From a virus, in IMG/VR virus record IMGVR_UViG_3300034407_002720, positions 1 to 20,163 of that record: 20,163 nt of DNA. One strand, written 5' to 3'. The notes under the pieces are model-generated. The model saw nothing but the letters and a program-made list of their open reading frames with translations, made no database searches and was not told the origin of the DNA. Shown in pieces: positions 12,049-20,121 of this stretch. A program made the translations under genes and the position numbers. Numbering within the stretch: the stretch's first letter is position 1; the number at the start of each line of letters is the position of its first letter.

Positions 12049-12735
12049 TTAATTTTTAACAAAATCAGTATTACCATCAAGTTCTTTTACCCTTGGGATA
12101 ATATCAGACTTCAATGCATTTATCAGTAATGCACTTCGAAAGTCATTTGAGTTATTAGGCATAGTACTATGCAAAGTTCTACCATCATACATCAATACAT
12201 CTCCTGGTTTAGCAAGAAATTGCTGCCCCTCAGTAATTAGTCTATGGTTATAATGTTCTCTATTTTCTTCTAAGTCCTTATAATTAATTCGTTCTAAACT
12301 AGAACCAGGTAGATAGGCAGTGCCACCATTCTCTAATGTAAAGTCATCTAGAGGAATGATAATTTGAACGCCAAGAGTTTCATAACTTTCGGCAAACTCC
12401 TCGAAACGATATGGAGTGTCAATATGAGCATATACTTTATTCGATGATGGACGAGTTGAAATGCAATCAACTACATGAATATCCCATTCGTTAATACCGA
12501 ATAGCCTATTTATTTGATTATATAATTGCCAAACAACTGGCTCCCACATCTCTCTTGGTGGCTGTGTTGTCCACCATACATCATACTCTCGTTCACCGTC
12601 ATGTTTGCCATAGTAATTGCCATCTACTGCATTACCACGGTGATACCTTTCTGGATTAGTAGCCCATAATTTAAATTGTGAAATTGTAGTAGGATTAATT
12701 ACATCCCGCATTACTAATGTACCATCAGATACCAT
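12049..12735 (-). CDS. 2OG-Fe(II) oxygenase, phytanoyl-CoA dioxygenase (PhyH)-like
   Basis: 228 aa. Enzymes of this fold couple oxidation of a substrate to 2-oxoglutarate decarboxylation at an Fe(II) site. The facial triad is visible: His104-x-Asp106 in VYAHIDTPYRF and His189 in MYDGRTLHSTMPNN. Arg200 (DFRSALLIN) sits about 11 residues on, where the 2OG carboxylate is bound. Between them lie GVQIIIPLDDFTLENGGTAY and PGSS, the strand-turn typical of PhyH-like members. The substrate is unknown; marine T4-like phages often carry such genes. Start ATG 12735 follows GGAGAATAAA. A GTG at 12747 in frame would put that ribosome binding site inside the protein, so it is rejected. The sigma70-type promoter at 12775-12803 suggests early expression. 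Confidence 0.85.
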   Translation of the reverse strand: MVSDGTLVMRDVINPTTISQFKLWATNPERYHRGNAVDGNYYGKHDGEREYDVWWTTQPPREMWEPVVWQLYNQINRLFGINEWDIHVVDCISTRPSSNKVYAHIDTPYRFEEFAESYETLGVQIIIPLDDFTLENGGTAYLPGSSLERINYKDLEENREHYNHRLITEGQQFLAKPGDVLMYDGRTLHSTMPNNSNDFRSALLINALKSDIIPRVKELDGNTDFVKN

Positions 12736-12766
12736 TTTATTCTCCACGATGTTTACTCCCTAATAC

Positions 12767-13875: not shown

Positions 13876-15273
13876 ATGGCAGATTTAAGACAACTACACT
13901 TTTATGATGAACAGGTAAGACGTTACTTGCTTCAGTTTATTCGTATTTTCAGTGGCTTTAATGTGAAAACTGGTAAAAAATTAAATGACGGAACAAGTGA
14001 TTACTATATAAAAGTTCCGAGTCGTTATGGCGATGTATCAAGAATGGCTGCAACAATTATAAAAGGCAACAGTGAAAATATTGTTAATTCAGCACCATTT
14101 ATTTCTTCATATATTCAAAGTTTACAACCTGATAGACAAAGATTACAAGAACCATTTTTTAGTGATACAGTTAAGGTAAACGAAAGACAATGGGATCCTG
14201 TAACTAGTTCCTATACTGAAGAACAAGGTAACAGATACAGCGTAGGCAGATTAATGCCAGTTCCATATCTGTTAAATATGCAAGTTGATATATGGACATC
14301 AAACACCGATCAGAAATTACAACTACTTGAGCAAATTTTAGTTCTGTTTAATCCAGCATTAGAGATACAACAAAACGATAATCCCATTGACTGGACTACA
14401 ATTACTACAGTTGAACTTACTGACATTCAGTGGACCAGTAGATCGATCCCAGCGGGCATTGAGGATCAAATTGATATTGCTAGTTTATTCTTCCAAATAC
14501 CAATTTGGATTAATCCGCCTGCACTGGTCACTAGACAAAATGTTATTAGAAATATCATTCATAATATTTATGAATACAATGATATTGATACACTAGATTA
14601 TGATCCAAATGCATTTGAATTCTTTGCTGATTTACAGGTACAAACAAGTGTTGTAGTTACACCGGGAAATAATGCTATACAAGTCACAAATAACAACGGT
14701 AATGTAACAGTACAACTACTAGAGAATGGAAACTATAAAGACGATAATAATAGTTGGGAAAAAGTTATTGCCAACTATGGTTTATTCAATGATGGTGTAT
14801 CACGTATGCGCCTAAAGTATCATGGAAATTTAGAAAATATTGATGCAGATGTGATAGGAGTTCTATCATCGACTGCTGATCCGTCTGTGTTATCATTACA
14901 GATCGATGTAGATACATTACCAGGAAATACAATAAATCCCATAGATAGAGTAATTGACCCATCAACAACTCGTCCGGGGTTTGGCAACTTACCATTTCCT
15001 AGTGTGGGACAACGTTACTTATGCTTGAATACAGAACAAGCATTACCACAGTGGGGAACCAACATATCTACAAATGATATAATCGAATACAATGGTAGTA
15101 ATTGGGTTGTGAGTCTGGATGCAAGTGAAACATCTGAAGTACATTATGTAACAAATGTATTCACATCACAGCAATTTAAACTAGTAAATAATGAGTGGGT
15201 TGATACATTCCAAGGGGTGTATGAAGGTGGCTATTGGAGATTAGAATTATTAAGTGGCAATGATAATGATTAA
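13876..15273 (+). CDS. 15: Tail terminator/sheath stabiliser gp15 with C-terminal extension
   Basis: 465 aa (T4 gp15 is 272). It caps the tail tube and sheath and joins the tail to the neck. Residues 1-215 follow T4 gp15: HFYDEQVRRYLLQFIRIFSG, a DYYIKVPSRYGDVSRMAATI strand-helix, RLMPVPYLLNMQVDIWTSNT (T4: ...MIYELSIFTRYED), QLLEQILVLFNPALEI, then IDIASLFFQIPIWINPP matching T4 'WSLTFEVNGWMYPP'. After about residue 255 it continues with 210 residues not present in T4. These are a beta-rich segment and two Trp-hairpin units (IIEYNGSNWVV near 402-412, FKLVNNEWVD near 434-443). ATG 13876 has GGATTGGATT upstream. It is cotranscribed with gp14 from 12782-12789, and its last codons overlap the Nudix gene. 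Confidence 0.85.
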   Translation: MADLRQLHFYDEQVRRYLLQFIRIFSGFNVKTGKKLNDGTSDYYIKVPSRYGDVSRMAATIIKGNSENIVNSAPFISSYIQSLQPDRQRLQEPFFSDTVKVNERQWDPVTSSYTEEQGNRYSVGRLMPVPYLLNMQVDIWTSNTDQKLQLLEQILVLFNPALEIQQNDNPIDWTTITTVELTDIQWTSRSIPAGIEDQIDIASLFFQIPIWINPPALVTRQNVIRNIIHNIYEYNDIDTLDYDPNAFEFFADLQVQTSVVVTPGNNAIQVTNNNGNVTVQLLENGNYKDDNNSWEKVIANYGLFNDGVSRMRLKYHGNLENIDADVIGVLSSTADPSVLSLQIDVDTLPGNTINPIDRVIDPSTTRPGFGNLPFPSVGQRYLCLNTEQALPQWGTNISTNDIIEYNGSNWVVSLDASETSEVHYVTNVFTSQQFKLVNNEWVDTFQGVYEGGYWRLELLSGNDND

Positions 15274-15691
15274 AGCAGCAGGTGCTTGTATTTTAGCAAA
15301 AGATACTAAAAGAATTTTATTGCAACATAGATCTCTTAAAAGTTCATATGCAAGGAACTGGGCATTTTGGGGTGGCAAAATTGAAGATAACGAAAATGTG
15401 TCACAAGGACTTCTTAGAGAATTAGAAGAAGAAATTGGAATTGATGTTGAAGAATGTGTTACAAAAGTTTATCCCTTGGACCAATATCATACTAGAGATA
15501 AGACATTCAGTTATTATACTTTTGTAGTACTGATAGATAAAGAATTTACCCCTATTATAAATGATGAAAGTGGTGGATATGCTTGGGTAAATTCAAATTA
15601 TTTCCCAAGACCCTTGCACCCAGGTGCACAACGAACACTTTTTAAGAAGAAAAAATTAAACATACTTAAATCAATAATTAATTCTCTATAA
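15266..15691 (+). CDS. Nudix hydrolase
   Basis: 141 aa. The full Nudix box is present at residues 37-59: GKIEDNE, then seven residues, then RELEEEIGI, fitting G-x5-E-x7-REU-x-EE-x-GU. The RE and EE glutamates bind the metal. Such enzymes hydrolyse nucleoside diphosphates linked to another moiety; the substrate cannot be read here. The N-terminal strand KAAGACILAKDTKRILLQHR and the WAFWGG lead-in to the box are typical. Possible starts are GTG 15254, ATG 15260 and ATG 15266. I chose 15266 because AAGTGG lies 8 nt before it and MIKAAGACIL is a natural Nudix start. The gene begins inside the end of gp15 (8-nt overlap), so it should be made late with the virion genes. Confidence 0.85.
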   Translation: MIKAAGACILAKDTKRILLQHRSLKSSYARNWAFWGGKIEDNENVSQGLLRELEEEIGIDVEECVTKVYPLDQYHTRDKTFSYYTFVVLIDKEFTPIINDESGGYAWVNSNYFPRPLHPGAQRTLFKKKKLNILKSIINSL

Positions 15692-16425: not shown

Positions 16426-18534
16426 TTATGTCGCTCCATAAATAGTACCGCTGTTTGTTAATGTACGGCTGGTACCAGTGATAGCGGCGCCGCCTGCACC
16501 GCCGTTCCTGGCGTTTCTACCAATACCATTACCGCCTGGTTGTCCCCAGAATCCACCATCCCCACCTCTAACATTACCGCCAGAAGGAGCTGAACCCGTA
16601 GCAGAACTACTTGGGTCTCTACCACCACTGATAGCAGTAGTGTGATCGGCTGCGCCGCCATCTTGTGATGCAAGTGTACCACCGAAGCCACCATGTGGTC
16701 CGCCAATGCCCGCGATACTATTAGCAGAGTTGCTCTTTCTGCCACCATTACCTGCTGATTGTCCGATGCTGCCTGGAGTACTGCCCGGCCCAGAGTAACT
16801 AAGTCCTGCAATGCCACCGCCTGCGCCGCCGCCGCCACCAACGCCATCAGAATCTGTCATATCAAGCGCGCCGCCACCGCCACCGCCACCGCCCACTATG
16901 TAACCGCCAGCGTTATTTAAAATTGTTACACCAGTAGAGATTACATTAATCGCTGGACCACCTGCGGCGCCATTGCCAGATTTGGCACCACCGTTACCAC
17001 CACGTCCCATGATGAACCCGCTGTTGCTTACTGTAAGACCACCGGGGAATGCCCCTGAGATTATAAGGCCAGCTGTGGCGGTATTGTCAGACCAAACGTA
17101 AACACCGCTGCTTATGTTGGCTAACAGTGCTGAGGTACCATCCCACCCACTCGCTACAGCAGCAGAGCGTAGGTCCCAATTCTCTTGGTTCGAAGTAAGG
17201 GTGAAGTCAAATTGAGATGCCTCAACTTCTATATTAAAACTCAGCGGAGCGGTTGCACCAGCAGTATCAGTTGCAGTTACGGTTACATTATATGACCCTG
17301 CCTGCGCAGGGGTTCCACTAAATGTTCTGTTGTTTGAATCAAGTGTTACACCACTCGGCAAACCACTCGCACTATATGTTATTACATCACCATGTATTAA
17401 ATCTTCATCTGAGAAAGTATTAGATGGGAATTGATATGATAAACTATCAGCATCAGTTAATGCTTGATTTGTTAACGAACCAACTACGACTGGCACATCA
17501 TTTACATTTTCAATACTTAAAGTAAATGTGGAAGTTACACTCGCATTTTCCAAATCAGTACCTGTGACAGAAACCGAATAATCACCAACAGTATCATTTG
17601 TCGAATTACCACTGATAATACCAGTTGTACTATTAATTGTGTAACCGGGCGGTAATCCTTCAGCAGAGAAGCTTAGTTGTTCCGTAGAATTTGGAATATT
17701 ATAATCAACATCTGTGAAGTAACTCGAAATATTAATTTCGTGATATGTCTCTTCGTATCCAGTATTATTCGGTATTTGAGTTACAGTTGGAGCATCATTT
17801 ACATTGGTCACAACTAATGTAAATGCATTGGTTGCGGATGCACCAAATAAATCAGTTGCAGTTAAACTAATACCGTGAATACCAACATTGTCGTTTGTTG
17901 GACTAGCAGAAAAATTTCTAGTTGGAGAATCAAATGTTAACCACGCAGGCAAAGGGCTACCATCACTTAAAGTTACAGTGTAAGTAAGTACATCACCTTG
18001 ATCTAATTCTACAAATGTTGTAATAGGAATAGTAAAACTAATAGTACTATCTTCTGGCATAGTTTGATCTAATATTGGATCTGAAAGAATTGGACTATCA
18101 TTTGTGTTAATAACAGTTAGATCAAATACATCTGCGATATTTGCTCTGTTACTATCAGTTGCAACAACTTTTATCGACAAAACAGCAACGTCATCGTTAG
18201 ACGGTGTGCCAGAAAATTCTCTTGTGGTAGGATTAAATGTTAACCATGCGGGCAATAATTGTCCATTCTGTTGTGTTGCAGTATATGTTAATACATCATC
18301 TGGATTGTCATCAGTAAATACATTTTCTGGAAATTGAAAATAAAATGGACTATCTTCGTAAACCGACAAATCAGCAATCGGATTAGAAACTGCTGGTCTA
18401 ATATTAGTATCTTCGGGAACTTCCAATAATCCTAGCCGCCATCTATTCAACTCTTTGTCATACACATGAGTATAGCGAGTAGTTCTATAATTTTGCATAA
18501 GGGTAGCATTATTAGTGAAATTATTTTTTGACAT
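16426..18534 (-). CDS. Adhesin: four cadherin-like (CADG) repeats plus Gly-rich tip domain
   Basis: 702 aa from ATG 18534; an upstream in-frame ATG at 18564 lacks a ribosome binding site and lies within the mini-gene. Residues 1-40 carry an aromatic module ending YTHVYDKELNRWRL. Residues about 50-440 are four dystroglycan-type cadherin-like repeats of about 97 residues, with LPAWLTFNPTTREFSGTP, LPAWLTFDSPTRNFSASP, LPPGYTINSTTGIISG and LPSGVTLDSNNRTFSGTP, separated by NTNDSP/NVNDAP linkers. Residues 440-702 are a Gly-rich domain with runs of 8 Gly, introduced by VYVWSDNTATAG and ending TLTNSGTIYGAT. Gly-rich tips of this kind (polyglycine-helix packing, as in phage S16 gp38) bind receptors. 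A host-recognition fibre is the likely role. It is the last gene of the TAATG-linked operon. Confidence 0.85.
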   Translation of the reverse strand: MSKNNFTNNATLMQNYRTTRYTHVYDKELNRWRLGLLEVPEDTNIRPAVSNPIADLSVYEDSPFYFQFPENVFTDDNPDDVLTYTATQQNGQLLPAWLTFNPTTREFSGTPSNDDVAVLSIKVVATDSNRANIADVFDLTVINTNDSPILSDPILDQTMPEDSTISFTIPITTFVELDQGDVLTYTVTLSDGSPLPAWLTFDSPTRNFSASPTNDNVGIHGISLTATDLFGASATNAFTLVVTNVNDAPTVTQIPNNTGYEETYHEINISSYFTDVDYNIPNSTEQLSFSAEGLPPGYTINSTTGIISGNSTNDTVGDYSVSVTGTDLENASVTSTFTLSIENVNDVPVVVGSLTNQALTDADSLSYQFPSNTFSDEDLIHGDVITYSASGLPSGVTLDSNNRTFSGTPAQAGSYNVTVTATDTAGATAPLSFNIEVEASQFDFTLTSNQENWDLRSAAVASGWDGTSALLANISSGVYVWSDNTATAGLIISGAFPGGLTVSNSGFIMGRGGNGGAKSGNGAAGGPAINVISTGVTILNNAGGYIVGGGGGGGGALDMTDSDGVGGGGGAGGGIAGLSYSGPGSTPGSIGQSAGNGGRKSNSANSIAGIGGPHGGFGGTLASQDGGAADHTTAISGGRDPSSSATGSAPSGGNVRGGDGGFWGQPGGNGIGRNARNGGAGGAAITGTSRTLTNSGTIYGAT
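16801..16920 (-). repeat. Gly-codon repeat tract in the cadherin-like adhesin
   Basis: The plus strand is a dense series of CCGCC/CCACC triplets, with (CCGCCA)-type repeats around 16870-16893, encoding two Gly runs (about residues 547-554 and 565-575 of the product). It is strikingly GC-rich against the surroundings and a plausible slippage site. Confidence 0.6.
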
Positions 18535-18650
18535 TAATCTAACTCTTTTCTTTCGAGTTTCCATTTATTGGATGCTGCATGATACACGTACACATATGAC
18601 CGCAATGTTATTTTTGTTCCATCAGGTGCATTTTTAGGAAAATTTGCCAT
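18534..18650 (-). CDS. 38-aa mini-protein made only of the fibre N-terminal aromatic module
   Basis: ATG 18650 to TAA 18534. The product starts MANFPKNAPDGTKITLRSYV, continues YVYHAASNKWKLERKELD and then stops. Its second half matches the N-terminal module of both Gly-rich adhesins: RSYVYVYHAASNKWKL here, TTRYTHVYDKELNRWRL in the 702-aa protein, and TSDFLYKYSSEFNIWFL in the 320-aa protein. The ATG overlaps the upstream stop (TAATG) and its stop overlaps the next ATG in the same way, which argues that it is translated. A Shine-Dalgarno sequence is not obvious, so coupling is the likely way in. It may be a cap or linker subunit, or what is left of a third adhesin gene. Confidence 0.65.
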   Translation of the reverse strand: MANFPKNAPDGTKITLRSYVYVYHAASNKWKLERKELD

Positions 18651-19159
18651 TACTCAAAAGCCTCCCATATTGCATATTCTTTTGTGATATCTTCTACGAA
18701 CTGTTCTATTCTAACATCCAAAGATTCAATTTCGTTCTTGGTAGTATAAACATCTCCCATAATTGTTTCGGCTCTATTGAAATTATTTATATTACCATCT
18801 TCGATTATACCATCTACAATGTTAGAAAATTTAACCCATTCAAGATTTTTTCTGAATTGACGGCACTCAGCCAATGAACCTTGTTTAACTGACATTTCAT
18901 TTATTATAACTCTATACGTATCAGTTGGTACCGCATCAATGCCAAGTCTTATAGCAGTGGGTTCTGATTTCAACCTTCTTGCAAGACTTAACCATATACG
19001 TTTATCATCATCTGATATTAGCGGATCTTGAGCAATTTTTTGAACACATGTTCTATATGTATACCCTTTACCTAGAATATTATCTTCTAAGTATTGAATA
19101 GCTTCGTCACATAAATAATCGTAATTTCTTAAATTAAGTAGAACTTTATCAATTTGCAT
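18650..19159 (-). CDS. Unknown helical protein in the adhesin operon
   Basis: 169 aa from ATG 19159; the reading frame is open further upstream, but that part lies inside the Gly-rich gene in another frame. Largely helical: MQIDKVLLNLRNYDYLCDEA, then a helix-loop-helix segment with VQKIAQDPLISDDDKRIWLS, LGIDAVPTDTYRVIINEMSV, and an acidic C-terminus (DVRIEQFVEDITKEYAIWEA). No membrane segments or known motif. It is flanked by the two Gly-rich adhesins and coupled to both sides by TAATG. In T4-like phages a fibre-assembly chaperone often follows an adhesin, so a chaperone or attachment role is a fair guess, but nothing in the sequence proves it. Confidence 0.75.
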   Translation of the reverse strand: MQIDKVLLNLRNYDYLCDEAIQYLEDNILGKGYTYRTCVQKIAQDPLISDDDKRIWLSLARRLKSEPTAIRLGIDAVPTDTYRVIINEMSVKQGSLAECRQFRKNLEWVKFSNIVDGIIEDGNINNFNRAETIMGDVYTTKNEIESLDVRIEQFVEDITKEYAIWEAFE

Positions 19160-20121
19160 TATGTATATCCTCCGTACATTGTACCATCGTTGATTACAGT
19201 AGATGTTCGTCCATTCCAATTGATTGCCCTGCCGCCAGCGCCGGCATAACGATATGTATTTGAACCAATGCCACCTACACCACCGGATGCACCCCAGCCA
19301 CCTCCGCCGCCTGCATACCATTCACCATGTGGTGAACTTCCTCCTGGATTACCGCCGCTTCCGCCTGCGCCGCCGCCTCTGCCGGACCGAGGCGCGCCAG
19401 AACCGGGAATAATTCTGCCACCGCCGCCGCCGCCGCCACTAGGATCATTATTTTTACTTCCAGAATCTGGAGCACTACCACCAGAACCACCAGCGCCGCC
19501 ACCATATCCTATTAAGTCTGATACGCCTGTACCATTGGTGCCTGCTCTGTTTAATGAACCACCTTGTCCACCATAAAATGGTCCCTGGTCGTCTCCCATA
19601 AACCCGCCAGAGCCCCCACCGTTACCACCGCCAGCGCCACCACCACCAGATGTGTATGCTGATCCTCCGCCGCCGCCGCCGCCGCCTGCCATTATTCCAG
19701 TTGAATAATTTTCAACTTCTACATAATCCGCAGTGATACTAACAGCATGGCCGCCACTTTCACCATGGGTGCCAGCACCACCTGCACCACCTTTTCCTAT
19801 AATGGTACCATAATTTAATAATACTGTATTTGGTACATCCATTATTATAGCAGCAGAGCCTGTATAATCTGACCAAACCCAAAAATCTTCAGGCACTAAT
19901 AATGCATCACCTTCAAATAAACCCAACGATGATGCAGTAACCGGTCCTAATTTATTTTCTATATCATTAATAATTTCATCTTTGTATTCTGATATATCAA
20001 CTGTTTTACTTAAACGATTCAAAAACCAAATATTAAATTCAGAACTATACTTGTACAAGAAATCACTTGTCCGTATAGTGCTTTCATCAGCTACTCCATT
20101 AATGAATTTACTTTTTGTCAT
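19159..20121 (-). CDS. Gly-rich adhesin (gp38/S16-type tip)
   Basis: 320 aa. The N-terminal 40 residues contain the aromatic module DFLYKYSSEFNIWFLNRL, and residues 40-75 are a helical linker. From 79 on it is a Gly-rich domain matching that of the 702-aa protein: WVWSDYTGSAAIIMDVPN, then NYGTIIGKGGAGGAG, HAVSITADYVEVENYSTGIM, many Gly runs of 5-8, and an ending TVINDGTMYGGYT that mirrors TLTNSGTIYGAT. Receptor recognition by loops between polyglycine helices is known for phage S16 gp38, and a similar role is inferred. The start ATG 20121 has no strong ribosome binding site; the upstream 42 bases are AT-rich and its promoter is probably outside the window. Its last codons GGA GGA TAT provide the Shine-Dalgarno sequence for the next gene. 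Confidence 0.85.
   Translation of the reverse strand: MTKSKFINGVADESTIRTSDFLYKYSSEFNIWFLNRLSKTVDISEYKDEIINDIENKLGPVTASSLGLFEGDALLVPEDFWVWSDYTGSAAIIMDVPNTVLLNYGTIIGKGGAGGAGTHGESGGHAVSITADYVEVENYSTGIMAGGGGGGGGSAYTSGGGGAGGGNGGGSGGFMGDDQGPFYGGQGGSLNRAGTNGTGVSDLIGYGGGAGGSGGSAPDSGSKNNDPSGGGGGGGRIIPGSGAPRSGRGGGAGGSGGNPGGSSPHGEWYAGGGGGWGASGGVGGIGSNTYRYAGAGGRAINWNGRTSTVINDGTMYGGYT
19420..19438 (-). repeat. (GGC)n trinucleotide run in the 320-aa adhesin
   Basis: The plus strand has an uninterrupted ACCGCCGCCGCCGCCGCCA tract encoding consecutive Gly as GGC codons. Pure triplet repeats of one codon, although Gly has four, are prone to slippage by multiples of three and would change Gly number without breaking the frame. 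Confidence 0.6.
19667..19686 (-). repeat. (GGC)n trinucleotide run, longest copy
   Basis: Twenty bases of CCG/GCC repeat on the plus strand encode six to seven Gly with identical codons, inside the eight-Gly run of the adhesin (about residues 146-153). It is one of the strongest GC islands in the window. Confidence 0.65.

Follow-up and report, generated by a model that had tools for sequence, protein, structure and literature searches.

The four-gene cassette

The viral sequence analysed here, hereafter the window, is the whole 20,163-nucleotide stretch at positions 1 to 20,163 of IMG/VR record IMGVR_UViG_3300034407_002720. A first-pass annotation, made from the sequence alone, placed four open reading frames on its minus strand, and all four are present: P1 (19159..20121), a predicted adhesin of 320 amino acids (aa) with an N-terminal module, a short linker and a glycine-rich (Gly-rich) tip of the gp38 type; P2 (18650..19159), 169 aa, of unassigned family and a candidate assembly partner; P3 (18534..18650), 38 aa with an isoelectric point of 9.5, in which the N-terminal module stands free; and P4 (16426..18534), a predicted adhesin of 702 aa with an N-terminal module, four He_PIG domains and a gp38-type Gly-rich tip. 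All features of the cassette given below are also on the minus strand. We read these genes as a modular host-recognition cassette that a PA5oct-like jumbo phage carries in a variable tail-fibre island, with two gp38-type tips and a shared, probably docking, module, and we put the probability of this reading at about 0.7. The parts are of known kinds and their arrangement is new; the cassette is at once conserved and mosaic.

The P1/P2, P2/P3 and P3/P4 junctions are each a TAATG one-base overlap in which the A of the stop codon is the A of the start codon, as annotated at first pass; the P1 start itself has no such overlap. Because one-base overlaps are common in these phages (the commonest same-strand spacing, at 44 of 654 pairs or 6.7%), it is their conservation rather than their mere presence that carries weight. 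A single one-base junction is ordinary, and the emphasis on three TAATG junctions as remarkable in themselves was toned down. Three consecutive overlaps kept across three lineages, despite near-saturated synonymous sites, are not a matter of chance. A GGAGG sequence resembling a ribosome-binding site for P2 (19169..19173) is embedded in the codons of the P1 C-terminal 'YGG' and is found also in L010, L084 and L013 (numbers of this form denote other viral contigs); a GGAGG-type sequence likewise precedes the P3 start, within the upstream gene. The four genes are probably co-translated.

Two gp38-type tips

The P1 tip (19162..19884) extends from FWVWSD to INDGTMYGGYT, and the P4 tip occupies 16429..17214. 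The shared lead-in ('FWVWSDYTGSA' in P1, 'VYVWSDNTATA' in P4) and C-terminal ending ('INDGTMYGG', 'TNSGTIYG') reported at first pass are both there, and the two domains can be aligned end to end at ~35% identity. Twenty-five tips from the window and other viral contigs align over their full length, with the W-S and many Gly columns invariant.

The P4 tip matches Pfam family PF05268 GP38 (E=4.9e-7, 30.2 bits against a cut-off of 25) and phrog_2056, a tail fibre host-specificity family (E=1.3e-8). GP38 matches were obtained for 11 of the 25 family tips; P1 alone falls below Pfam GP38 detection, though it is a member of the same alignment. Compared with PDB, the profile of the 25 tips finds S16 gp38 (6f45_D, E=1.3e-5), colinear through to the C-terminal N-x-G-x-I-x-G end. 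Single-sequence phmmer searches of PDB with P1 and P4 returned no gp38, only linker-like or immunoglobulin-like (Ig-like) matches. The AlphaFold model of P1 (predicted local distance difference test score, pLDDT, 78.7; predicted template modelling score, pTM, 0.80) has as its sole significant PDB matches two chains of the receptor-binding domain of PP01 gp38 (E=2e-6 for 9v85 and 2e-5, probability 1.00), which also provide the fold match for the P1 tip; several of its BFVD matches bear the names Gp38 or tail fibre. The earlier assignment of both Gly-rich domains to the S16/T2 gp38 type thus stands, by fold for P1 and by sequence for P4; the structural comparison that the first-pass annotation proposed is favourable for the P1 model, and it is through sequence that P4 is supported.

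The gp38 protein of PP01 binds OmpC, which S16 also targets, and the receptor-binding domain of PP01 gp38 is a poly-glycine II lattice with loops touching OmpC (PMC12892980). In P1 and P4, the variable loops between the Gly runs would contact bacterial surface receptors.

In P4 the tip is carried on a stalk of four He_PIG (PF05345) cadherin/Ig-like domains (17224..18399; Pfam E=2.6e-60, four stretches). Homologues of P4 were found in L009-L013 and L084. The L010 protein has about one repeat fewer, seen as an alignment gap, and that of L013 has three.

Conservation in related phages

The first-pass annotation had named dispersal of these genes in related phages as evidence against a cassette. 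Instead, the P1-P2-P3-P4 order and its one-base overlaps recur in L084, L010 and L013, with one of the L013 junctions being TGATG instead of TAATG. The L084 sequence ends inside P4 and that of L010 inside P1; the two are nearly identical here and with L013 make up two further lineages besides that of the window. Amino acid identities to the window (L084 or L010, then L013) are 79 and 61% for P1, 57 and 57% for P2, 84 and 82% for P3, and 69 and 41% for P4, compared with 91 and 82% for the neighbouring gp15. Synonymous sites in the cassette are near saturation (synonymous divergence, dS, mostly >1) and nonsynonymous divergence (dN) is low. For P2, dN is 0.30-0.34 against dS >1; for P3, dN is ~0.11 against dS of 0.7-1.1, a pattern of purifying selection.

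In isolate phages no such four-gene cassette was found. There, tblastn with P1, P2 and P4 gave no match, partly through low-complexity masking, and two consensus queries gave two distant matches only.

P2

Relatives of P2 were found in this cassette only. It has no sequence match of weight in Pfam, PHROG, NCBIfam or PDB, and neither a profile search of PDB and further viral scans nor a single scan across bacterial and archaeal genomes turned up a relative outside the cassette. Its model is poor (pLDDT 58) and mixed alpha/beta, with no fold match in PDB or BFVD, leaving room for remote fold kinship. The earlier description of P2 as a helical assembly factor has therefore been dropped, there being no family or fold match behind it and a low-confidence model that is not purely helical. 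An assembly role is still plausible, and P2 may help to fold or place one or both adhesins.

We give an even chance to a narrower alternative, which concerns the role of P2 only: that it is a fold-specific chaperone like Pam3 gp25 or Mu Tfa and would be absent from the mature particle. The gene lies directly behind the first tip gene, and its 169-aa product is close in size to the 162-aa chaperone gp25 that accompanies the Gly-rich fibre gp24 in Pam3 (PMC9608196); another gene of the L084 island encodes a tail-assembly-chaperone domain (PF16778). Against this, the P2 sequence matches none of Tfa, PF16778 and gp25, and its poor AlphaFold model is unmatched.

A shared N-terminal module

A segment of 30-40 residues that ends in Y-x-Y...N-x-W is common to P1, P3 and P4, and the same module opens the S74 and collagen-type fibres of the island. 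The first-pass annotation mentioned neither this similarity nor the cadherin/Ig-like domains of P4. In P1 it lies at 20011..20106 ('YKYSSEFNIW'), with predicted beta strands, and in P4 at 18421..18522 ('HVYDKELNRW'). Profile comparison with hhalign gave 90-95% for P3 against each of the other three groups (91% with P1, 90% with P4) and for P1 against P4 (95%), with scores of 29-37 where the shuffled-control maximum was 17. Values for P1 and P4 against the fibres were weaker, at 33% and 71%. A module profile built without P3 recovers P3 at E ~1e-9. Profiles built without P1, P4 or the fibres recover these weakly to marginally (E 0.0008 to 0.23), and because of this the links among P1, P4 and the fibres depend mainly on the profile-profile scores. 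In the P1 model the module forms strands (residues 15-36, moderate confidence).

Since the module opens several otherwise unrelated fibre types, the simplest reading is that it docks to the virion, and it probably does so, mounting each protein on a common kind of site. A different mounting, which we consider improbable, would make P1 and P4 gp38-like caps at the far ends of fibres that are products of other, upstream genes, with the module binding a fibre tip and not the baseplate. It has a precedent in T2-type phages, where gp38 caps gp37 as a protein of its own (PMC12892980). Upstream regions of L002 and L084 do contain fibre genes that end in an S74 chaperone, and Sphaerotilus phage vB_SnaP-R1 has a tail-fibre gene overlapped by one base with the next gene, which has a similar tip lead-in. 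That collagen-type and S74 fibres themselves begin with the module is a better fit to a shared virion dock, however, and P4 has a stalk of its own. P1 and P4 do not qualify as gene 38 orthologues: their N-terminal module is a different one, with predicted strands, P4 is fused to four He_PIG domains, and the gene next to P1 on its upstream side in L002 is beta-propeller-like and no gene 37.

A little less probable again is a single assembly system in which the module is a common plug for one class of dock, so that long-tipped P4, short-tipped P1 and tipless P3 would be made from one mRNA, translation would set their shares of the sites, and P2 would load the plugs.

P3 was seen inside the cassette only and, by its profile matches, is the N-terminal module alone, with no tip. 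It could fill, cap or prime docking sites. That it is instead a non-functional remnant, the N-terminus of an adhesin gene lost or swapped, would account for a module with nothing behind it, and is very unlikely given that its length and position are kept in three lineages at 82-84% identity, that dN is well below dS, and that it has its own start and one-base overlaps.

Origin and exchange of the tips

A 29-tip tree places the P1 tips in one clade and the P4 tips in a second (support 100/100 each); a branch supported at 100/99 unites P4 with tips from other phages, leaving P1 outside. The two tips look independently acquired. The first-pass annotation had called them paralogous, and tip duplication in place was rejected on this tree. 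Duplication inside this phage to give dosage of one adhesin, as the common cassette, domain type and similar N-terminal modules might suggest, is highly improbable in view of the separate tip clades and the joining of other phages' tips to P4, the ~35% identity, the differing stalks and an L013 P4 that has no Gly-rich tip at all.

In that L013 homologue the N-terminal part and three Ig-like domains are retained, but the C-terminal end is a different, non-Gly-rich domain, a swap of the tip. Immediately upstream of P1, L013 also encodes an extra Gly-rich tip protein of 318 aa (L013:15788-16744) with a different N-terminus, and its branch in the tip tree is very long. The earlier claim of two adhesins made in fixed ratios cannot be read from sequence, and the L013 arrangement, with its non-Gly-rich P4 tip and additional Gly-rich gene, speaks against it.

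In the window, the P4 tip has a probably recombinant stretch at its N-terminal edge (16945..17217). Over P4 residues ~440-530, G+C content at third codon positions (GC3) of non-Gly codons is 0.41-0.47, where both L010 and most of the P4 gene stand at ~0.2. Identity to L010 is ~50% here; the stretches on either side match it at 88% and 83%. These signals point to a probable recent exchange by recombination.

The first-pass annotation considered two tips at one locus unusual. They are a minority: one scan found two tip genes in 2 of 50 loci bearing a recognisable tip, by a simple-pattern rule that misses some tips. They are not unique, since other environmental phages have multi-tip loci, with two or three tip genes in L093, L099, L100-L103, L149 and L176 and double-tip proteins in L104 and L171. 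In L099 three tandem Gly-rich tip genes are linked by one-base overlaps (L099:1155-4062), and the product of L104:6906-8702, one protein of 598 aa, bears a tandem pair of gp38-type tips; L171 shows a similar pattern. A partial literature search found no paper on two gp38-type tips in one cassette.

The tail-fibre island

The tail genes of the window match T4-type families, with sheath and tube identified by PHROG and gp15 by PF16724. The gp15 protein is ~40% identical to those of Pseudomonas phages of the PA5oct group, and two relatives are on contigs of 246 and 342 kb. By these sequence matches the window phage is a T4-like relative of the PA5oct-like jumbo phages. It is probably marine, an origin that the first-pass annotation assumed.

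The cassette is convergent, across a gap of 6 bases, with a plus-strand block comprising gp14-like, gp15-like and NUDIX genes and a gene for a 234-aa protein (u234). Its placement in the tail-fibre region is borne out: it sits in an island flanked by the gp15-NUDIX-u234 block and the gene for the major capsid protein. Sister phages L005, L007, L016 and L017 have other fibres at the cassette position, with the major capsid gene after the fibres where the locus extends so far, and Pseudomonas phage Cassandra has the same relative layout with a different block content. Because the sister phages and Cassandra hold other genes there, we describe the island as variable. L002, nearly identical to the window, reaches past the window edge and, immediately ahead of P1, encodes a fibre with an S74 end and a beta-propeller-like protein. 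The latter (L002:235-1290, 351 aa) is of BNR/sortilin type, below Pfam cut-offs, and is possibly another fibre or adhesin of the island.

Other genes of the window include the NUDIX hydrolase gene (15254-15691) directly downstream of gp15, also found beside gp15 in PA5oct-group phages such as Cassandra, and a PhyH-type 2-oxoglutarate dioxygenase gene (12049-12747) amid the tail genes, kept in those sister phages whose maps were read. At the opposite window end, 476-1126 encodes a protein with an Mtd_N domain (major tropism determinant N-terminus), and a gene running off the edge (2-325) has an opening that resembles that of the Mtd_N protein (YTVQFRRGTSAEHSTFTGEAGEVTFDT).

Interpretation

In a host-recognition cassette of this kind, P1 would be short and P4 long on its Ig-like stalk, holding the two tips at different heights. 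Several points weigh against this interpretation. The TM-score of the P1 model to gp38 is modest (0.51 by target length, 9v85_C), the P4 tip is assigned through Pfam and by aligning it to that of P1, the module may be there for folding or trimerisation instead of docking, and P2, unlike any known chaperone, may serve otherwise.

The gp38-type poly-glycine adhesins are extended by these results to uncultured jumbo phages. Tips fused to an Ig-like stalk and to a module common to unrelated fibre types suggest how phages swap or combine receptor-binding tips. Retained between the two adhesins, the free, tipless module of 38 residues is small and testable, and offers a way to learn how a virion mounts and counts its adhesins.

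Comparison with known systems

The PA5oct-like jumbo phages (Cassandra, Arenbergviridae, Wroclawvirus) have the same order of virion structural protein, gp15-like protein, NUDIX and small protein, followed by an opposite-strand variable block and then the major capsid gene. In Cassandra, unlike the window, the block consists of other proteins without assigned function and a homing endonuclease.

Pam3 gp24, with its chaperone gp25 (PMC9608196), is similar in having a C-terminal Gly-rich receptor domain on a self-contained fibre and a small partner of similar size. It differs in its helical shaft and TNF-like domain, neither of which was detected in P1 or P4, and P2 has no detectable similarity to gp25 or Tfa.

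The closest likeness of the tips is to gp38 of T2-type phages (S16, T2, PP01; PF05268, PDB 6F45, 9V85). They have in common the poly-glycine tip domain, its start GRGG...GG-x-A/C-I...N...GGGGGGGG and its C-terminal N-x-G-x-I-x-G end. In those phages gp38 is a stand-alone cap, ~250 aa long, that attaches to gp37 through a small helical part at its N-terminus. The tips of P1 and P4 are instead joined to a different N-terminal module, in P4 together with four Ig-like domains, and two tip proteins occur within one cassette.

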